This document shows, piece after piece, positions 91-7,521 of a stretch of DNA of 7,521 nucleotides. The stretch spans positions 1-7,521 of the forward strand of contig JAJRTI010000417.1 in assembly GCA_024278415.1 (NCBI GenBank). The letters run 5' to 3'. Both the position numbers and the translations under genes were made by a program. The stretch is from Planctomycetota bacterium (GTDB lineage: Bacteria > Planctomycetota > Brocadiia > JAJRTI01). The notes beneath the pieces are model-generated. The model saw nothing but the letters and a program-made list of their open reading frames with translations. It did no database searches and was not told where the DNA came from. Positions within the stretch are counted from its first letter, which is position 1. Each line of letters begins with the position of its first letter.

Positions 91-837
91 ATGTCACTGC
101 CCATCGCACTTCAACTCTACACGGTTCGCGACCAGATGGAGAAGGATACGCCCGGCACGCTCAAAGCTGTGGCCGACATCGGCTACACGCAGGTCGAAGC
201 CGCGGGCACGTGCGGCATGGAGCCGGCCGCGTTCAAGGAGGCCTGCGACGCGGCCGGCCTGACGATCATCAGCGCGCACGTGCCGCCGCCGACAGGCGGG
301 TGCCCCTGCGAGACCATCCAGATGGCCAAGGCGCTTGGCGTGTCGTACCTCGGCACCGGCATGCCCGGGCCGTTACGCGAGCAAGGCCTCGAAGGGTTCA
401 AGGCACACGCCGCGAACTGCGACAAAGCAGCCAAAGCCCTCGCGGAAGAAGGCATCACCCTCTGCTACCACAACCACTCGTTCGAGTTCGTCGAGTTCGA
501 TGGCAAGTACGGGCTCGATGTGCTCTACGAGGAGTCGACTGCGCTTATGGCTCAGTTCGATGTGTATTGGGTTTTGCACGGCGGCGAGGATCCCGCCCCA
601 TACATGCTGAAGTGGAAGGACCGCTGCAAGACGATCCACCTCAAGGACATGCTCGACGACGAGGCGAAGTCCTTCGCGGAAGTCGGCCAAGGCATCCTCG
701 ACTGGCCGAGCATCTTCGAGGCGGCCGCGGAGATCGGCGTGGCCTACTACATCGTCGAACAAGACCGCTGCGCGGGGCCGTCGCTCGAGTCGGCCAAGAT
801 CAGCTTCGACAACCTGAAGAGTTGGGGCTACGCGTAG
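91..837 (+). CDS. Sugar phosphate isomerase/epimerase (xylose isomerase-like TIM barrel)
   Basis: The 248-residue product looks like a single-domain AP endonuclease 2/xylose isomerase-like TIM barrel, the family of cytoplasmic sugar or inositol-derivative isomerases and epimerases that use a divalent metal. The opening 'ALQLYTVRDQ' (6-15), 'YHNHSFEF' (126-133, His127 and His129), 'FDVYWV' (156-161, Asp157), 'GGEDP' (164-168), 'IHLKDM' (182-187) and 'VEQDRC' (222-227) are the usual family landmarks and contain the likely metal and substrate ligands. The length is normal for the short bacterial members. The ATG at 91 follows AAAGGAA at 79-85 by a few bases, which decides this start over the longer overlapping frame beginning at 21. 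The substrate cannot be read from the sequence. A strong hairpin follows the gene and separates it from the dsr genes, so it is probably a metabolic neighbour and not part of the sulfur pathway. No signal peptide is visible. Confidence 0.93.
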   Translation: MSLPIALQLYTVRDQMEKDTPGTLKAVADIGYTQVEAAGTCGMEPAAFKEACDAAGLTIISAHVPPPTGGCPCETIQMAKALGVSYLGTGMPGPLREQGLEGFKAHAANCDKAAKALAEEGITLCYHNHSFEFVEFDGKYGLDVLYEESTALMAQFDVYWVLHGGEDPAPYMLKWKDRCKTIHLKDMLDDEAKSFAEVGQGILDWPSIFEAAAEIGVAYYIVEQDRCAGPSLESAKISFDNLKSWGYA

Positions 838-1022: not shown

Positions 1023-1340
1023 ATGGCTACGTTGAACCTCGGTGGCAAGGATCTGGAAATCGATGAGGACGGCTTCATCCAGGATCCCGAACAGTGGGAT
1101 GATGGCGTTGCCGCCGACCTCGCCAAGACTGAGCAAGTGGATGAACTGACTGAGGACCACTGGAAGGTTGTGAACTACATTCGGGAATACTTCATCGAGT
1201 TCGGGTCCGCGCCCATGGTCCGCAAGCTGTGCAAGGCGAGCGGATTCAAGCTGAAAGAAATCTACGAACTCTTCCCCACCGGCCCTGCGAAGGGAGCCTG
1301 CAAGATTGCCGGCCTGCCCAAGCCCACGGGTTGCGTGTAG
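1023..1340 (+). CDS. dsrC: DsrC, sulfur-carrier substrate protein of dissimilatory sulfur metabolism
   Basis: The 105-residue cytoplasmic protein belongs to the DsrC/TusE/DsvC family. It has the flexible C-terminal arm ending 'GACKIAGLPKPTGCV', with Cys93 and the penultimate Cys104. In the family these two cysteines hold sulfur as a DsrC trisulfide made by the sulfite reductase DsrAB, which DsrMK then reduces (or the reverse in sulfur oxidisers). Having both cysteines, the length, and the conserved N-terminal 'DEDGFIQDPEQWDD' (15-28) and 'HWKVVNYIREYF' (46-57) support a true DsrC over a TusE, which keeps only the last cysteine. Cys70 is an additional cysteine. The ATG is fixed by AAGGAG at 1010-1015. 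dsrC has its own promoter and is separated by 95 bases with two dyads from the next gene, so it may be expressed above the rest of the locus. dsrAB are not in this window. Confidence 0.95.
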   Translation: MATLNLGGKDLEIDEDGFIQDPEQWDDGVAADLAKTEQVDELTEDHWKVVNYIREYFIEFGSAPMVRKLCKASGFKLKEIYELFPTGPAKGACKIAGLPKPTGCV

Positions 1341-1413: not shown

Positions 1414-1435
1414 ACTAATGAGGATTGCTCGCGTC

Positions 1436-1831
1436 ATGAGCCTTGTTTCTGTGGAGCATCGGGCCGGGAAGTCCTTCACGGTCAGCATTCGGCAGCACGA
1501 GTTGGTCGTGGATGCCAGTCTTGAGGATGGCGGTGAGGACGGTGGCCCCAAGCCTACTGAACTCTTCGTTGCCTCCCTCGGATCATGTATCGGCATCATG
1601 ATCGCTGCGTACTGCCAGAATGCTGATTTGCCCTATGAAGGCATGGAGGTCGACGCAGCGTTTGACCTCGCGGCGGATCCCATTTGCATCGGCAGTATCG
1701 CCATTGACATCACGATGCCGGAGGGTTTCCCCGAGGAACGGCGCAAGGCGCTGCTGCGAGTCGCACAAGCTTGCCCCATTCACAATACTTTGCACCGACC
1801 GCCCCAGATCAGCGTGGAAGTGGTCGACTAA
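1436..1831 (+). CDS. OsmC-family redox protein
   Basis: The 131-residue product shows the OsmC/Ohr fold signature: an N-terminal beta region, then 'ELFVASLGSCIG' (42-53) on the central helix and 'ACPIHNTL' (112-119) near the end. Cys51 and Cys113 are the paired cysteines that in this family reduce organic hydroperoxides or handle thiol and persulfide chemistry. The protein is short and has no signal peptide, so it is cytoplasmic. I chose the ATG at 1436 because GAGGA (1420-1424) lies upstream and the family-like sequence begins there; an in-frame ATG at 1418 would add six residues but has no visible ribosome site. It lies between dsrC and the RsbRD_N gene, 29 bases from the latter. A role in sulfur handling or in protecting the Dsr proteins from oxidation is inferred from context. 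The true substrate is unknown. Confidence 0.88.
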   Translation: MSLVSVEHRAGKSFTVSIRQHELVVDASLEDGGEDGGPKPTELFVASLGSCIGIMIAAYCQNADLPYEGMEVDAAFDLAADPICIGSIAIDITMPEGFPEERRKALLRVAQACPIHNTLHRPPQISVEVVD

Positions 1832-1860: not shown

Positions 1861-2394
1861 ATGAGCCTTCGAGACAGACTGGCCGAGCGGAAGGGCGCAG
1901 TCGTGGCTGAATGGCTGCGCCAGGCGATCGAGGCGTACCCCGCAGATGCGGCGCGATTCCTCTTGCAAGAGACCGATCCTTTCGCAAACCCTCTTGGCCG
2001 CACGACGGCGGAAGGCCTCGCAGGGCTCGTTGACGAGTTGCTTGGCCGCGGGAGCATTGCGTCGTCTTCGCCACATTTGCGGCGAATCGTCGAGGTCCGA
2101 GCGATTCAGGATTTCCCGCCATCCCAGGCGCTCGCTTTCTTGGGCAAGCTGAAGGAAATCGTGCGGGAGGAGCTGGCGCACGCTGGCGCGTCTGAAGGGT
2201 TAGACCATGAGTGGCTCGCGTTCGATGCTGAGGTGGACAAGCTCGTGCTCGCCGCATTCGACGCGTACATGGCTTGCCGCGAGAAGGTGTATGAGTTGAA
2301 GGCCAACGAGATCCGCAACCGTACGGCGATGCTCCTGCAACGCACGGGCGTGCTGGCTCCTGAGGAGCCTTGCGCGGCCGGCCCATCCGACTGA
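1861..2394 (+). CDS. RsbRD_N (RsbR-type N-terminal sensor) domain protein of the dsr operon
   Basis: The 177-residue protein consists almost wholly of the all-helical RsbRD N-terminal domain, marked by 'WLRQAIEAYP' (18-27), 'DPFANPLGRTT' (39-49), 'LRRIVEVRAIQDFPPSQALAF' in two parts (73-83 and 84-93) and 'LGKLKEIV' (94-101). In RsbR-type stressosome proteins this domain precedes a STAS domain. Here no STAS domain follows, only a helical tail (about 115-165) and a short disordered end. From family knowledge, stand-alone proteins of this kind are recurrent neighbours of dsrM in sulfate reducers, and their function is unproven. GGAGGG (1850-1855) precedes the ATG by five bases. Cys139 and Cys171 are the only cysteines. 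It may help assemble or regulate DsrMK. That role is inferred from conserved position. Confidence 0.85.
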   Translation: MSLRDRLAERKGAVVAEWLRQAIEAYPADAARFLLQETDPFANPLGRTTAEGLAGLVDELLGRGSIASSSPHLRRIVEVRAIQDFPPSQALAFLGKLKEIVREELAHAGASEGLDHEWLAFDAEVDKLVLAAFDAYMACREKVYELKANEIRNRTAMLLQRTGVLAPEEPCAAGPSD

Positions 2395-2436: not shown

Positions 2437-3444
2437 ATGAACGCGTTACCTGCCATCGTCGCCTCGATCACCGCCATCATGCTGCTGGCCATGGTGCCGC
2501 TGCTGGGCGTTGTCGCGGCGAAGCTCGACTTTGTTTTTGCCATCGTTATCCCGTATCTGGCTGCAGCCACCTTCCTCGTTGGCGTCGTCTACCGCGTCGT
2601 GCTTTGGGCTCGATCCGCGGTGCCGTTCCGGATTCCCACGACCTGCGGGCAGCAGAAGTCGCTGGAATGGGTGCAGGGCCAGCCGCTGGAGAACCCACCG
2701 TCTATGCCATGGGCCGTCGCTCGTATGGCGCTGGAGGTGCTTGTGTTCCGGTCGCTCTTTCGCAACACGAAGGCGCGGTTGCATGAGGATGGCCGGCTCT
2801 CGTACCGCTCCGAGAAACTGCTTTGGGCCGCGGGGCTGCTGTTCCACTGGAGTTTGCTCGTGGTGGTCGTGCGCCACCTTCGCTTCTTTTGCGCACAGGT
2901 GCCGAAGCCCGTCTCTATGCTGGCGTCGCTTGATTCCTGGTTCAATATTGGCGCGCCTGAGGTTTACCTTTCCGGGCGGGTATTGCTGCTCGCGCTCTTG
3001 TTCCTTTTCTTCCGTCGGGTCCTGAGTCGTCAGTTGCGGTACATCTCTCTGGCGGCGGATTATTTCCCCCTGTGCCTCATCGGAGCGATCGCGCTGTCCG
3101 GAATCTTTCTACGGCAGGTGAGTCGCATCGACATCACCGCTGCAAAGGCCCTGGCCGTTGGCCTTGCGACTTTTCATCCCATCGTGCCGGCCGGCTTGTC
3201 TCCCTTGTTTTACCTGCACATCTTTCTCGTGTGCGTGTTGCTTGTGTACGTTCCGTTCAGCAAACTGATGCACATGGGCGGCGTGTTCCTCTCCCCGACG
3301 CGTAACTTGGCGAACACTAGCCGCCTGCGCCGGCACGTGAACCCCTGGGATTACCCCGTGAAGGTTCACACCTACGAGGAGTACGAGGACGAGTTCAGAA
3401 CCAAGATGAAAGCCGCAGGCCTGCCATTGGAGAAGGACGAATAA
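2437..3444 (+). CDS. dsrM: DsrM, membrane diheme cytochrome b subunit of the DsrMK(JOP) complex
   Basis: The 335-residue protein is an inner-membrane NarI-like cytochrome b that exchanges electrons between the menaquinone pool and cytoplasmic DsrK. Hydrophobic segments lie near 5-27, 31-57, 127-146, 177-195, 208-227 and 255-276. Candidate heme b ligands are His137, His147, His247, His261 and His279. The linker 'PTTCGQQKSLEW' (67-78) and 'VFRSLFRNTKARL' (103-115) are characteristic of DsrM and separate it from plain NarI. The C-terminal 55 residues form a soluble tail rich in charged residues, probably contacting DsrK. It begins 42 bases after the RsbRD_N gene with a weak ribosome site, and its TAA overlaps the dsrK ATG (TAATG), implying coupled translation. 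The identification is firm. Which histidines bind heme is inferred. Confidence 0.95.
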   Translation: MNALPAIVASITAIMLLAMVPLLGVVAAKLDFVFAIVIPYLAAATFLVGVVYRVVLWARSAVPFRIPTTCGQQKSLEWVQGQPLENPPSMPWAVARMALEVLVFRSLFRNTKARLHEDGRLSYRSEKLLWAAGLLFHWSLLVVVVRHLRFFCAQVPKPVSMLASLDSWFNIGAPEVYLSGRVLLLALLFLFFRRVLSRQLRYISLAADYFPLCLIGAIALSGIFLRQVSRIDITAAKALAVGLATFHPIVPAGLSPLFYLHIFLVCVLLVYVPFSKLMHMGGVFLSPTRNLANTSRLRRHVNPWDYPVKVHTYEEYEDEFRTKMKAAGLPLEKDE

Positions 3445-5072
3445 TGCCAGAGAGTCCAGAAGGCATTGCCCCGCCGGAAGAACTCTCGCGGGTCGACTAC
3501 TCCCCACCTCCAACCGATTGGATGAACACGTCGGTCGACTTCAAGCAGGGCATGTGGTCGTACAGCGCCAAGGGCAAGCACTTGGAGTACCTCGATCTGC
3601 CCAACCCGCGCGACTGGTCGCCCAAGGACGACGATTGGCAGCTCCCCGAGAATTGGCGGGAGATCATCCTCGAAGGCCTCCGCGAACGCATCGACCGATT
3701 CCGCTCGTTGCGGGTGTTCATGGACATATGCGTGCGTTGCGGCGCGTGCTCGGACAAGTGCCACTTCTTCTTGGGCACGGGCGACCCGAAGAACATGCCA
3801 GTGCTGCGCGCCGAGCTGCTGCGCTCCGTGTACAAGCGCGAGTTCACCAAGGCGGGGAAGTTGCTCGGAAAGATCGCGGGTGCGCGAGACCTGACCGTCG
3901 ATGTGCTCAAGGAATGGTTCTATTATTTCTACCAGTGCACCGAGTGCCGGCGCTGCTCGGTGTATTGCCCGTACGGCATTGACACGGCCGAGATCACGAT
4001 ACTGGCCCGGGAGCTGATGACCCTCGTGGGGGTGAACATCGGCTGGACTATTGAGCCCGCGGCCAACTGCTTCCGCACCGGCAATCACCTGGGCGTGCAA
4101 CCCCACGGCATCGCGGACAGCATCGAGTTCGCGGTGGACGAGTTGGAGGAGATCACGGGCATAGCGGTCGACGCGCCGATCAACAAGAAGGGCGCGGAAG
4201 TGCTCTTCATCGCGCCATCTGCCGATTACTTTGCGACGCCTCACTACTTCACGCTCCTGGGCTACCTCGCGCTGTTCCACGAGATCGGCCTCGATTACAC
4301 GTGGAGCACGTATGCATCCGAGGGCGGCAATTTCGGCCTGTTCACGTCGCACGAAATGATGAAACGCTTGAACGCGAAGATGTACGCAGAGGCCGAGCGG
4401 CTTGGCGTCAAGTGGATTCTGGGCGGCGAGTGCGGGCACATGTGGCGGGTCGTGCACCAATACATGAGCACCATGAACGGGCCCGCCGATTTCCTCGAGA
4501 CGCCTGTCTCCCCCGTGACAGGCACGCGCTTCGGCCACGCGGCCGGCACGAAAATGGTGCACGTGTGCGAGTTCACCGCCGATCTGATTCAGCACGGCAA
4601 GATCAAGCTCGACCCCAGCCGCAACGACCAGTGGCGCGTGACGTTCCACGATTCTTGCAATCCAACCCGCGCGATGGGCATGATCGAGGAGCCGCGCTAC
4701 ATCATCAAGAGCGTGTGCAACAACTTCTTCGAGATGCCAGCGAACACGATCCGCGAGCACACGTTCTGTTGCGGGAGCGGCGCGGGCCTCGGCGGGGAAG
4801 AGAACATGGAGGCGCGCCTGCGCGGCGGATTCCCACGAGCTAACGCGGTCCGGCACGTGCACGAGAAGCACGGCGTGAACTTGCTCGCGTGCATCTGCGC
4901 TGTGGACAAGGCGTCGTTTCCCGCATTAATGGATTACTGGGTTCCAGGCGTCGAGGTTGGAGGCATCCACGAACTCGTGGGCAACGCGCTGGTGATGGAA
5001 GGCGAGCATGAGCGTGTGACGGATCTTCGCGGGGAGCCGTTGCCAGGAAAGGAGACGCAGGGCGATGTATGA
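3444..5072 (+). CDS. dsrK: DsrK, HdrD-like catalytic iron-sulfur subunit of the DsrMK(JOP) complex
   Basis: The 542-residue cytoplasmic protein carries two ferredoxin-type [4Fe-4S] motifs, Cys96-99-102-106 and Cys165-168-171-175, each followed by an aromatic-rich stretch. A C-terminal CCG-type site has Cys405 ('HDSCNPTRA'), Cys442-Cys443 ('FCCGSGAGLGG') and Cys483/Cys485 ('LACICAVDKA'). In the HdrD family such sites hold a noncubane [4Fe-4S] cluster that reduces disulfides; in DsrK the substrate is oxidised DsrC. Cys330 ('GGECGHMW') and Cys375 are further conserved-looking cysteines. 'DYWVPGVEVGGIHELVGNAL' (497-516) is typical of the DsrK C-terminus. The length is normal. AAGGA (3433-3437) inside the end of dsrM serves the ATG at 3444. 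The gene overlaps dsrJ by eight bases. There is no membrane segment, so attachment would be through DsrM. Confidence 0.96.
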   Translation: MPESPEGIAPPEELSRVDYSPPPTDWMNTSVDFKQGMWSYSAKGKHLEYLDLPNPRDWSPKDDDWQLPENWREIILEGLRERIDRFRSLRVFMDICVRCGACSDKCHFFLGTGDPKNMPVLRAELLRSVYKREFTKAGKLLGKIAGARDLTVDVLKEWFYYFYQCTECRRCSVYCPYGIDTAEITILARELMTLVGVNIGWTIEPAANCFRTGNHLGVQPHGIADSIEFAVDELEEITGIAVDAPINKKGAEVLFIAPSADYFATPHYFTLLGYLALFHEIGLDYTWSTYASEGGNFGLFTSHEMMKRLNAKMYAEAERLGVKWILGGECGHMWRVVHQYMSTMNGPADFLETPVSPVTGTRFGHAAGTKMVHVCEFTADLIQHGKIKLDPSRNDQWRVTFHDSCNPTRAMGMIEEPRYIIKSVCNNFFEMPANTIREHTFCCGSGAGLGGEENMEARLRGGFPRANAVRHVHEKHGVNLLACICAVDKASFPALMDYWVPGVEVGGIHELVGNALVMEGEHERVTDLRGEPLPGKETQGDV

Positions 5073-5445
5073 CCGGGGAAAGATCATCCTGGGCTTGATC
5101 CTCTTTGTCGCGGCCGCGATGTTCCCGATTTGGGCCAACCTCGCGACGGCCCGCACGGCTGACAAGCCTGGCCTCAAGCCGGTCGAGCCCTATGTGGACC
5201 CGTCGCTCACGCCGCCCACTTACCACTTGCCTCTGAAGAAGTGGCGAGCGAACCATTTGCGCAGCGTCAAGAAGGGCGCACGCACGCGATACGAATGCGT
5301 GCTGTGCCACGAGCCGCCGCGGCACTGCAATCGATGCCATCGCTACATGGGTGTCCGCGATTTCATTGACCGGCCAGTTGCGCCTCCCATGTCCCCTCAG
5401 CCGGCCCCGAGCCCGCCGGCACGATCTCCCGCGTCGCAACCATGA
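5065..5445 (+). CDS. dsrJ: DsrJ, periplasmic cytochrome c, variant with only two heme sites
   Basis: The start 'MYDRGKIILGLILF' and 'MFPIWANL' (19-26) form the uncleaved-looking signal anchor typical of DsrJ, and 'WRANHLRSV' (60-68) matches the conserved pre-heme helix. Two c-type heme motifs follow: CVLCH (78-82) and CNRCH (88-92), the latter leading into the DsrJ-like 'RYMGV'. DsrJ of known sulfur bacteria binds three hemes, with a third CxxCH near the C-terminus and an N-terminal cysteine that ligates one heme iron. Here the third motif is replaced by 'RDFIDRPV' and a proline-rich tail (105-126), and the only cysteines are the four heme-binding ones. The equivalent of the cysteine region reads 'EPYVDPS' (41-47). 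AAAGGAG (5048-5054) precedes the ATG. The stop overlaps the next start as ATGA. Identity rests on the N-terminus, operon position and the two motifs. Confidence 0.86.
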   Translation: MYDRGKIILGLILFVAAAMFPIWANLATARTADKPGLKPVEPYVDPSLTPPTYHLPLKKWRANHLRSVKKGARTRYECVLCHEPPRHCNRCHRYMGVRDFIDRPVAPPMSPQPAPSPPARSPASQP

Positions 5446-6212
5446 ATCCCTTTTCACTTATCATCACTGGCCTGCTGGCTCTGCCCACGGCCGCCTCGCA
5501 CGCGCCGGGCTGGAGCCCTGAGCGCGCAGCGGCTTACCGCCGGGTGACGACCCTGCACGCGAAGAGGATGGTCGAAAAGCTCCAAACTCGCGGGCAGTAA
5601 TTCCGAAAGGACGGATTGCCCTGCCTCGGCGCGGGCGACCGCCTCTGTTTGTCGTGCCATGTCCTCGCCCCAGGCACGGCCCGGAGCCTGAGCCCGCTCC
5701 ACATCACGATGATGCGCGGCATGCACAAGGGGCTCACTAAGAGTGCTCCCAAGGACATACGCAGAGTCCTCTGCGTCGATTGCCACGCGTATCCGCTGGC
5801 CAGTGGGGATTTGGCCAAGGGCGGGATGAAGGCTGAGGCATTGGTTGGCGTGCAGTCGGGGGATTTGAAGTTCGACATTAATCGCAAAGCCTGCGTGCAG
5901 CCGGCCTGCCACACGGACCAGAACCTCAAGTGGGCCGAGACCTCTCTTGATCGCATGAAGCAGGCCGTGAAACATGTGCCGACCGACGAGCTGTTCCGCG
6001 CGGACACGACGTGCGACCTCCTGGGACATCGATTTGACAGCTTCATCGGGCGCGGCCCCCTGAAGCTGGCGGGCGTGGTGACGCCGTGGATTCTTCTGGC
6101 CGTGATGCTCGCGATCGGCTATCGCCTATTGCAGATCGCGTCCCGCTCCGCATCGGGCAAACCGCCCGCGGACGCGGATTCATCTGCTAGCGAGGAGGCG
6201 CAACATGAATAG
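5442..6212 (+). pseudogene. Membrane-anchored multiheme cytochrome c between dsrJ and dsrO, interrupted by an in-frame TAA
   Basis: Read through a single TAA at 5598-5600 (codon 53), one frame encodes a coherent exported cytochrome. It has a Sec signal peptide ('FSLIITGLLALPTAASHA', 4-21), heme motifs CLSCH (69-73) and CVDCH (111-115), a longer-spaced CVQPACH (151-157, CX4CH), and a single C-terminal membrane helix ('VVTPWILLAVMLAIGYRLL', about 212-230) with a short polar tail. Cys61 and Cys191 are outside the heme motifs. The start overlaps the dsrJ stop (ATGA) and the end overlaps dsrO by eight bases, so the gene is built into the operon. The frame, heme motifs and anchor downstream of the stop are all intact. 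This suggests a sequencing error, a very recent mutation or readthrough, not an old decayed gene. TAA is the normal stop of dsrM and the OsmC gene here, so code reassignment is unlikely. I do not recognise the family. Confidence 0.75.
5616..6212 (+). CDS. Intact downstream part of the interrupted cytochrome c (possible restart product)
   Basis: This is the open portion after the in-frame TAA, 198 residues if initiated at the TTG at 5616. AAAGGA (5606-5611) lies four bases upstream, so reinitiation is conceivable. It contains all three heme motifs and the C-terminal membrane helix but no signal peptide. Heme attachment and export would not be expected from this product alone, which is why I regard it as part of the larger gene starting at 5442 and not an independent protein. 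Confidence 0.4.
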   Translation: MPCLGAGDRLCLSCHVLAPGTARSLSPLHITMMRGMHKGLTKSAPKDIRRVLCVDCHAYPLASGDLAKGGMKAEALVGVQSGDLKFDINRKACVQPACHTDQNLKWAETSLDRMKQAVKHVPTDELFRADTTCDLLGHRFDSFIGRGPLKLAGVVTPWILLAVMLAIGYRLLQIASRSASGKPPADADSSASEEAQHE

Positions 6213-7026
6213 ACGAGACTTCATCAAAAACGCGGCGGCCGCCGGCGCCCTGGTGCTGGGAGGGCGGTATGCCGTGGTCCTCGCGACGAGCTGCGGCCAG
6301 GACGGCCGCGGATTCATTTGCGATCGGGCGACTGACCCGCCCCTGAAGTTCTCCGATGCCGCGCCAGACCCCACAGCCCTTTACGGCATGGTCATCGACG
6401 CGGAGAAGTGCATCGGCTGCCACAGTTGCGCCATGGCCTGCCGCAACGAATTCCACGTGCCGCCTGGCGTGTGGAAATCCTGGGTCAAGGTCGTGCAGAA
6501 GGCCGGCCAGAAGCTTTTCCTGCCGCGCCTGTGCAATCACTGCAACGAAGCCCCGTGCGTCTCGGCGTGTCCTGTGAAGGCGTCTTACCGTCGCGAAGAC
6601 GGCTTGGTGCTGGTGCGCTACGATCGCTGCATTGGGTGCAAAGCCTGCATGGTCGCGTGTCCGTATGATGCGCGGTTCGTGCATCCTGTGAAGCATGTGG
6701 TAGACAAGTGTACTTTCTGCGCGCATCGGCTGGAGGAATGCCGGGGCCCTGCCTGCGTGGAGGTGTGTCCCACGCGAGCGCGTATCTTCGGCAACCTTAA
6801 CGACCCGAGCAGCGAGATCTCTCGCGTCCTCGCGAAGACCCCCGTGCAGACGCTCAAGGCCGGCCTGGGCACGCACTGCAAGGTCTTCTACGCCAACGCG
6901 GACCAGAGCACCTTTGGCCGGATCGAAGTTGGCCGCACTCCGACCGAAACTGTTGATCGATATGAGGAGTCCTTGCCGGCCGACGTGCGCGACGCGTTCC
7001 GCAAGTACGAGAAGCAAGTGTACTAG
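6205..7026 (+). CDS. dsrO: DsrO-like periplasmic ferredoxin with Tat signal
   Basis: The 273-residue protein begins with a twin-arginine signal 'NRRDFIKNAAAAGALVLGG' (2-20) and carries 16 cysteines in four [4Fe-4S] ferredoxin sets: Cys69-72-75-79, Cys110-113-118-122, Cys142-145-148-152 and Cys169-172-184-188. This is the architecture of DsrO and of related PsrB/NrfC/PhsB-type electron-transfer subunits. The Tat signal, the dsr position and the length favour DsrO. In known complexes it passes electrons between DsrJ and the membrane subunit DsrP. GAGGAGG (6192-6198) six bases before the ATG is the strongest ribosome site in the operon, so dsrO can be translated well despite the upstream interrupted gene. 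'VLATSCG' (25-31) weakly resembles a lipobox with Cys30. No dsrP follows within the next 495 bases. Partner identity here is therefore open. Confidence 0.9.
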   Translation: MNRRDFIKNAAAAGALVLGGRYAVVLATSCGQDGRGFICDRATDPPLKFSDAAPDPTALYGMVIDAEKCIGCHSCAMACRNEFHVPPGVWKSWVKVVQKAGQKLFLPRLCNHCNEAPCVSACPVKASYRREDGLVLVRYDRCIGCKACMVACPYDARFVHPVKHVVDKCTFCAHRLEECRGPACVEVCPTRARIFGNLNDPSSEISRVLAKTPVQTLKAGLGTHCKVFYANADQSTFGRIEVGRTPTETVDRYEESLPADVRDAFRKYEKQVY

Positions 7027-7038
7027 CACGTTCGTCGT

Positions 7039-7056
7039 GAGGCCCGTGTGGGCCTC
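7039..7056 (+). terminator. Terminator-like hairpin after dsrO
   Basis: GAGGCCC (7039-7045) and GGGCCTC (7050-7056) form a perfect 7-bp stem with a GTGT loop, 13 bases after the dsrO stop. No T run follows, so it may act as a weak or factor-assisted terminator or as a 3'-end stabiliser. Its position marks the likely end of the dsr message. Confidence 0.5.
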
Positions 7057-7090
7057 CTCCGAGACGGACCATACCATCCGCCCGTAGTAC

Positions 7091-7136
7091 GCGCTGAGTC
7101 GCTTGCCGGTTTTCGAACGACAACAGGTTGTCGATG
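7091..7136. repeat. 44-46 bp interspersed repeat, copy 1
   Basis: This copy shares GTCGCTTGCCGG, a TTTTCGAAC stretch and the core CGACAACAGGTTGTCG (7118-7133) ending in ATG with two further copies downstream. It is the most divergent of the three, with two extra bases and a G in place of the central T of the palindrome. Confidence 0.75.
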
Positions 7137-7147
7137 CGCCCCGTTGT

Positions 7148-7278
7148 GGAGTGCGCCGGCTTGACGGCGCTTTGGCTGGCAGCGCGTAGCGTTGCTTTGC
7201 ATCCGCACACTCGCGGTCCGTTCGCCAGCGACAGGTGAAAAGCTAAAGCGGCGTTCCCGCACATGCGGGACCGCACTC
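7148..7278. repeat. Large nested inverted-repeat element A
   Basis: Outer arms GAGTGCG (7149-7155) and CGCACTC (7272-7278) pair exactly, and CGCTTTGGCT (7168-7177) pairs with AGCTAAAGCG (7241-7250) with one G-U wobble. Each side also holds its own hairpin: GCGCCG/CGGCGC (7153-7158 with 7165-7170) and TCCCGC/GCGGGA (7255-7260 with 7265-7270). The central part (7178-7240) shows no clear structure or gene. The arrangement resembles noncoding intergenic palindromes dispersed in some bacterial genomes. There is no transposase in the window. Confidence 0.6.
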
Positions 7279-7284
7279 TAGATG

Positions 7285-7327
7285 GGCTGCGGCGCAGCCG
7301 CCTCCTGCTCCAAGCAATCTCTTGGAG
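7285..7327. repeat. Two small adjacent hairpins
   Basis: GGCTGC-GGC-GCAGCC (7285-7299) and CTCCAAG-CAATCT-CTTGGAG (7308-7327) are perfect stems of 6 and 7 bp lying between element A and repeat copy 2. They are probably part of the same repeat-rich intergenic block. Confidence 0.5.
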
Positions 7328-7330
7328 GAA

Positions 7331-7374
7331 GCGTAGTCGCTTATCGGTTTGCCAACGACAACATGTTGTCGATG
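7331..7374. repeat. 44-bp interspersed repeat, copy 2
   Basis: The unit runs GCGTAGTCGCTTATCGGTTT, then a short spacer, then the perfect palindrome CGACAACATGTTGTCG (7356-7371) and ATG. It is the same length as copy 3 and differs from it at three positions. All copies are in the same orientation. Confidence 0.85.
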
Positions 7375-7397
7375 TGTGCGGCGCGAGGCGACGTGGT

Positions 7398-7475
7398 TTG
7401 TAGTAGGGCAATTCATTGCCCGTCGAACGCCTTTGCCCTCACGAGGCAGACGGGCGGCAAATCGCCCTACTACAA
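7398..7475. repeat. Nested inverted-repeat element B
   Basis: TTGTAGTAGGGC (7398-7409) and GCCCTACTACAA (7464-7475) are exact 12-bp reverse complements. Inside lie two alternative hairpins using the same bases: GGGCAA-TTCA-TTGCCC (7406-7421) and GGGCG-GCAAAT-CGCCC (7452-7467). The element ends exactly where repeat copy 3 begins. No open frame in it looks protein-coding. Confidence 0.7.
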
Positions 7476-7519
7476 GCGTAGTCGCTTGTCGGTTTGCGAA
7501 CGCCAACATGTTGTCGATG
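7476..7519. repeat. 44-bp interspersed repeat, copy 3
   Basis: This is the same unit as copy 2, with one base change in the left half of the palindrome (CGCCAACATGTTGTCG, 7501-7516). It lies at the window edge, so the array may continue beyond it. Confidence 0.85.
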
Positions 7520-7521
7520 TC

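Follow-up and report, generated by a model that had tools for sequence, protein, structure and literature searches.

An anchored triheme cytochrome c beside a shortened DsrJ suggests a differently wired Dsr complex in a Planctomycetota bacterium

The Tmc and Hmc complexes of Desulfobacterota bring together a c-type cytochrome with DsrM-like and DsrK-like subunits and are thought to reduce DsrC. DsrMKJOP is held to move electrons from quinones to DsrC, with Tmc described as a second route to the same protein (PMC10553843), and DsrM and DsrP have been named as hypothetical quinone sites (PMC8076601). Organizations consisting of dsrMK only and of dsrMKJOP were described by Neukirchen and others (PMC10504309), and a further report describes the role of DsrJOP as unclear and says that certain organisms do not require it (PMC10926707). 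For cable bacteria, dsrTMKJ are described as standing alone, with dsrOP homologues and a tetraheme cytochrome in a distant TMH1-dsrOhPh-tetraheme locus (PMC13047784).

Here we describe a dsr locus on a contig of 7,521 nucleotides from a Planctomycetota bacterium; this whole stretch of DNA is referred to below as the window. It carries an extra gene for a triheme cytochrome c, and DsrO and DsrP were not found alongside; this make-up points to a known respiratory complex with altered wiring. The cable-bacteria arrangement is the nearest published report (PMC13047784). In both cases, dsrMKJ is found without adjacent canonical dsrOP and a multiheme cytochrome occurs with a ferredoxin of the DsrO kind. 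The tetraheme cytochrome of cable bacteria, however, lies beside an NrfD-type DsrPh and far from dsrMKJ, whereas the window cytochrome is triheme, membrane-anchored, located inside the dsr operon, and DsrJ-fused in relatives, with no NrfD seen. Among the papers listed by a full-text literature search, which left most subscription papers outside, no title or abstract start described a DsrJ-cytochrome fusion or this operon.

Operon layout and core genes

The features of the window are listed in Table 1. As a comparison set, we took from the species genomes the 80 loci whose DsrK is nearest to that of the window (best identity 76%).

Table 1. Features of the 7,521-nucleotide window
Feature	Position	Strand	Remarks
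IolE-like TIM barrel gene	91–837	+	
dsrC	1023–1340	+	Both C-terminal cysteines present; end ...ACKIAGLPKPTGCV
OsmC-like gene	1418–1831	+	Between dsrC and the RsbRD_N gene
RsbRD_N-domain gene	1861–2394	+	Upstream of dsrM; Pfam RsbRD_N 4.5e-14
dsrM	2437–3444	+	Di-heme cytochrome b subunit; NF038037
dsrK	3444–5072	+	Cytoplasmic DsrC-reducing iron-sulfur subunit; NF045796
dsrJ variant	5065–5445	+	N-terminal membrane helix, two hemes
Triheme cytochrome c gene	5442–6212	+	C-terminal membrane anchor; one in-frame stop
In-frame TAA of the cytochrome gene	5598–5600	+	
Ferredoxin gene	6205–7026	+	16 cluster cysteines (four [4Fe-4S]); probable TAT signal; TtrB/NrfC-like
Stretch with repeats	7027–7521	.	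No coding frame recognised; no dsrP/NrfD gene; up to contig end

The DsrM, DsrK, and DsrC of the window are typical of canonical DsrMKJOP systems. DsrM scored 489 bits against a family cut-off of 300 and DsrK 732 against 400, and DsrC was identified by Pfam DsrC (6.6e-38) and TIGR03342 (122.5 bits, cut-off 53.5). The order dsrC - rsbRD - dsrM - dsrK - dsrJ is also that of 59 of the 61 comparison loci in which all five genes were found, and the RsbRD_N gene is a frequent neighbor of dsrM, matched in 73/80 DsrK loci. A tree of 81 DsrK rows placed the window as sister to an Abyssobacteria locus (L001; support 98/87), the operon of which is canonical. The locus may resemble Tmc and Hmc functionally, by analogy of a cytochrome c with DsrM-like and DsrK-like subunits, but the same DsrK reached only 173 bits as TmcB and 148 as HmcF, and DsrM behaved likewise. 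As for the accessory genes, the OsmC-like gene has relatives in only four of the 80 loci (L046, L050, L054, and L080), and the product of the TIM-barrel gene shares at most 42% identity with its best match in 60 genomes.

The locus differs from canonical DsrMKJOP in that a conserved cysteine and one heme motif are missing from DsrJ, the place of DsrO is taken by a TtrB-like ferredoxin, an extra triheme cytochrome is present, and DsrP was not found in the window. The initial annotation had held that the usual operon has no gene at the position of the cytochrome. Indeed, the cytochrome was not matched in any of the 80 DsrK loci (tblastn, E 1e-3), 76 of which span the dsrJ-dsrO junction.

A two-heme DsrJ and its triheme partner

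The heme motifs of the window DsrJ are CVLCH and CNRCH. The protein scored 40.9 bits with NF038038, under the cut-off of 100, and in hhalign its match to the profile built from 78 canonical DsrJ had a probability of 99.5% (E 7e-23). A third heme motif occurs in all 78 of these canonical proteins, and an upstream conserved cysteine, which we take to be the ligand of DsrJ's His/Cys heme, in 77; the window DsrJ has neither. Published work on A. vinosum proposes the His/Cys heme of DsrJ as a place of sulfur chemistry (PMC9562282) and reports DsrJ as essential for stored-sulfur oxidation (PMC4213376), so that the reduced window DsrJ could also mean loss of function. Four comparison loci with otherwise canonical operons have CX3CH rather than CxxCH as the first heme motif of DsrJ: L007 (3767-4123), L008 (3555-3929), L033 (9598-9954), and L038 (9608-9982).

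The cytochrome frame contains CLSCH (residues 69–73), CVDCH (residues 111–115), and CVQPACH (residues 151–157), a set of three motifs that arose in 0/20,000 residue shuffles of the frame; the two CxxCH and one CX4CH sites noted at the outset are thus present. The C-terminal membrane helix also noted then coincides with the hydropathy peak at residues 207–225. That helix was the only stretch with block pLDDT >60 in an AlphaFold2 model of the cytochrome, and the models were poor overall, with a mean pLDDT of 43 for the cytochrome and 41 for its relative P0003 (see below). A signal peptide, likewise claimed, is plausible: the window protein scored under the hydropathy threshold used, and its stand-alone relative P0006 passed. 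The gene overlaps dsrJ by 4 bases (5442–5445) and the ferredoxin gene by 8 (6205–6212). Overlaps on both sides are therefore real, as first described, though the downstream neighbor is by sequence not dsrO (see below), and they fit co-production of the proteins while giving no proof of the complex they had been taken to imply.

Relatives of the cytochrome were sought in two protein searches. In the first, run over 5.8 billion proteins, 1,515 candidates were scored, and the matches were the window itself and P0003. The second, with a two-row alignment as the query, found the window and P0003, P0004, P0005, and P0006. As both searches were word-based, and the second scored its best 7,995 word-sharing candidates, distant cytochrome relatives may be missed. 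P0006 (236 residues) is a stand-alone cytochrome like the window gene. The other three, P0003, P0004, and P0005 (336, 383, and 340 residues), are fusions in which a DsrJ-like N-terminal domain with two hemes, CVLCH and CTKCH, is followed by the triheme domain and its anchor. Like the window DsrJ, all three are without the third heme motif and the upstream cysteine. Their N-termini matched the window DsrJ at 99.7% probability (E 2e-25) and canonical DsrJ directly at 39.8% only; the identification of the fused domain as DsrJ runs through a series of profile comparisons in which the window DsrJ is the link. Since three of the four relatives found are DsrJ-like fusions, the sequences support the cytochrome as a rare partner of DsrJ, in agreement with the initial annotation, which had placed it with that subunit. 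We also considered whether the window itself holds such a fusion split by a frameshift and rejected this because the N-terminus of its cytochrome resembles that of P0006.

All three heme motifs are kept in 5/5 sequences, the window protein and its four relatives, and so are histidines 39 and 87 (numbered as in the window), the best candidates for distal heme ligands; no third invariant histidine outside the heme motifs occurs in the alignment. The cytochrome reached the cut-off of no model in Pfam or NCBIfam, had no match to PDB sequences at E 1, and matched neither TmcA nor HmcA. Kinship with NrfB was rejected: the cytochrome scored 17.4 bits against a cut-off of 166.6 and has three heme motifs rather than five, and the faint NrfB-like score (E 0.0013 to 0.0042) came from only one of the five members. 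This faint score is what speaks for the cytochrome serving some other enzyme as an electron carrier of its own and having only the operon in common with the dsr genes, which we consider very improbable given the DsrJ-like fusion in 3/4 relatives and the start and stop codons that overlap both neighbors. The initial annotation had named two outcomes that would weigh against its reading, membership in a known cytochrome family with an unrelated partner and homologs generally unlinked to dsr genes. No family model passes its cut-off, and none of the four relatives that the two protein searches yielded, the stand-alone P0006 among them, could be seen to be unlinked.

Searches of genomes added no relatives. 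The cytochrome alignment gave no match in sets of 5, 3, 60, 82, 195, 84, and 291 genomes reached through other loci (slightly overlapping sets). The negatives from the 195- and 291-genome sets are soft, as scoring there was limited to 11 and 7 candidates per genome, and an empty genome search says little without a known positive. Among 132 genomes of the phylum of locus L002, one weak match (L124) was set aside as spurious, as it runs counter to an open frame which by inspection resembles a replicative helicase gene. No relative was found with P0003 patterns in species genomes, with the cytochrome alignment in viral contigs, or with P0006 in plasmids.

The cytochrome reading frame is broken by the TAA at 5598–5600, to which the initial annotation had alluded, and as a result the protein database entry (P0002) is a 198-residue piece without the signal peptide. 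All four relatives read through this position with ordinary residues, of three kinds. Recoding was ruled out: TAA also terminates dsrM and the OsmC-like gene in the window, so the genetic code is unchanged. The TAA is either a fresh nonsense change in this copy or a contig error. Together with the shortened DsrJ and the lack of a cytochrome relative with the ferredoxin's nearest kin, it could point to a locus in decay, one that has lost dsrO and dsrP and retains a degenerate DsrJ and a cytochrome gene that has only recently become a pseudogene. We regard such decay as improbable. There is only one lesion, and the heme motifs, the anchor, and the two overlaps are undamaged; G+C at third codon positions is 0.77 before the TAA and 0.79 after it, inside the 0.755–0.859 of the neighboring genes; and three relatives, all with open frames, show the same DsrJ differences. 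The picture would, moreover, be no different if the metagenome contig contained an error of sequencing or assembly.

The ferredoxin and the places of DsrO and DsrP

The cytochrome gene had initially been placed between dsrJ and dsrO. The ferredoxin encoded downstream scored 175.7 bits on the DsrO model, under the cut-off of 200 and below its own TtrB score of 188.8, whereas the DsrO proteins of L001 and L003 scored 322 and 313. It was also under the TtrB (188.8 versus 416 bits) and NrfC (169.6 versus 377.6 bits) cut-offs. All 16 cluster cysteines aligned, the first cluster is CxxCxxC with a spacing as in TtrB/NrfC-like paralogues, and DsrO's inserts are absent. A TAT signal and TAT export are probable, Pfam TAT_signal giving E 0.004 and 17.5 bits, under the cut-off of 22.7.

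We then examined its phylogeny in a tree of 73 rows, sampled as 33/119 non-self ferredoxin matches listed, 25/77 DsrO rows, and 14/20 paralogue loci. As 2 of the 14 paralogue loci are DsrO, the tree holds 27 DsrO, and these formed one clade (100/99) with the window protein outside, in a separate clade of 14 (99/96) with P0008–P0018, P0020, and P0021. Forcing the window ferredoxin into the DsrO clade was rejected by the AU test at p 0.027, a moderate result with long branches about. This tree supersedes an earlier one that had long branches and included a fragment row, L058, which is not a true DsrO. Names alone mislead here, as further-out relatives narrowly pass the DsrO cut-off (P0022, 201 bits; P0047, 207 bits) and four of the ferredoxin matches among those listed bear the NCBI name DsrO (P0054, P0075, P0089, and P0124). 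By these sequence comparisons, the ferredoxin is TtrB/NrfC-like and not DsrO, which leaves the placement of the cytochrome before dsrO unsupported. The window thereby shares with NrfB-NrfC/TtrB modules a ferredoxin that scores best as TtrB, an adjoining multiheme cytochrome, and five hemes, here in DsrJ plus the cytochrome, but it differs from them in scores far under the family cut-offs and in having neither NrfD/TtrC nor NrfA/TtrA, the latter searched for among the window genes with Pfam and NCBIfam.

P0020, which belongs to the same ferredoxin clade, lies on one contig of 4,168 bases; the contig that carries the fusion P0005 has this length too, and the two are probably one and the same. 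In its last third, P0020 is unlike its kin and may be a chimera. Both P0020 and P0021 look chimeric, with some parts near-identical to P0015 or P0011 and others from a different family, an appearance that could come from misassembly or recombination. The closest ferredoxin, P0008, is 74% identical to that of the window and has 54 kb as its longest contig; neither protein search found a cytochrome relative on a contig of that size. The contigs of P0003, P0004 (171 kb), and P0006 (41 kb) have sizes without counterpart among the 120 ferredoxin matches listed of 6,319.

In 73 of the 80 DsrK loci, DsrP follows DsrO within 255 bases, and the other seven end before that point, so that DsrP is present in 73/73 loci running past DsrO. 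A search of the window with baits for DsrP (taken from L001 and L003) and for NrfD (taken from L118 and L119) gave no significant match (best E 0.42); in a control on L001, both DsrP baits and the L118 bait recovered dsrP. The four open frames reaching into 7027–7521 had no Pfam match. Since the contig stops 495 bases after the ferredoxin gene, a DsrP or NrfD may be encoded elsewhere in the genome. This final stretch holds three copies of a diverged 55-base repeat (7082–7136, 7320–7374, and 7465–7519) and an inverted repeat (7388–7424 / 7449–7485), and the repeats at 7082–7519 are perhaps a dispersed element of the host genome.

The position of the contig end bears on whether the complex is still quinone-linked on its periplasmic side, with a DsrP or other NrfD encoded elsewhere pairing with the ferredoxin and the cytochrome merely lengthening the DsrJ chain or docking a further partner. 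Contexts were fetched for six more distant ferredoxin relatives (L118–L123), and in the four inspected (L118–L121) each relative directly precedes an NrfD-like gene, two of them confirmed as NrfD by Pfam. The distant dsrOP homologues of cable bacteria offer a precedent (PMC13047784). The close spacing of dsrP to dsrO in all 73 informative loci and the absence of any NrfD or DsrP match in the window argue against such a link, which we judge rather unlikely. No DsrM, DsrK, or DsrJ was detected in the L118–L123 stretches (tblastn with window proteins, E 0.01).

A candidate complex

We consider the case evenly poised that the window encodes a variant Dsr membrane complex, with the usual DsrM and DsrK and a rebuilt periplasmic half. 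Such a complex would couple the two-heme DsrJ with the anchored triheme cytochrome into a set of five hemes, which in three relatives are on one polypeptide. The TtrB/NrfC-like four-cluster ferredoxin would occupy the place of DsrO, with no quinone-binding DsrP encoded beside it; the periplasmic half would in that case depend on a different partner, for which we infer a soluble cytochrome or an enzyme. Ferredoxin and hemes could then act as a periplasmic wire between this partner and DsrM, from whose b hemes electrons would pass to DsrK, which would reduce the DsrC trisulfide, a path similar to that envisaged for Tmc. The periplasmic half would in this arrangement be free of quinone exchange, though DsrM may still bind quinone. 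The cytochrome might also do work that normally needs DsrP, as the initial annotation suggested. In support of the variant complex are the fusions in 3/4 relatives with their profile chain to canonical DsrJ, the heme motifs kept in 5/5 sequences, the shared DsrJ differences, the position of dsrP close behind dsrO in the comparison loci, the ferredoxin's place outside the DsrO clade, the probable sharing of one contig by P0020 and P0005, and a typical DsrM, DsrK, and DsrC, the first two above their cut-offs and the last with both of its cysteines. Counting against it are the in-frame TAA, the contig end 495 bases past the ferredoxin gene, the poor structure models, the weak direct match of the fusions to canonical DsrJ (39.8%), the essential role reported for DsrJ in A. 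vinosum, the NrfD-like genes adjoining distant ferredoxin relatives, the chimeric look of P0020, the contig sizes of P0003, P0004, and P0006, and the lack of a cytochrome relative for P0008.

More tentatively, we propose a Dsr complex free of DsrP, in which a TtrB-like ferredoxin and a wire of five hemes, made up of DsrJ and the cytochrome, would replace the quinone-linked DsrOP half. DsrMK would then be a periplasmic-cytochrome:DsrC reductase, and the split genes of the window and the fused genes of P0003–P0005 two stages of one rebuilding. If such a complex works, then the conserved cysteine and third heme of DsrJ, DsrO, and, at this locus, DsrP would be dispensable for DsrMK serving DsrC, and DsrMK could accept electrons by another periplasmic route, making the locus a natural experiment.

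One of the comparison loci also showed an extra frame within its dsr operon. In the Bacteroidetes locus L041, a 129-aa frame between dsrK and dsrJ (9700-10089) matched Pfam 23S_rRNA_IVP (9e-22), placing a four-helix-bundle gene of rRNA intervening sequences inside the operon.
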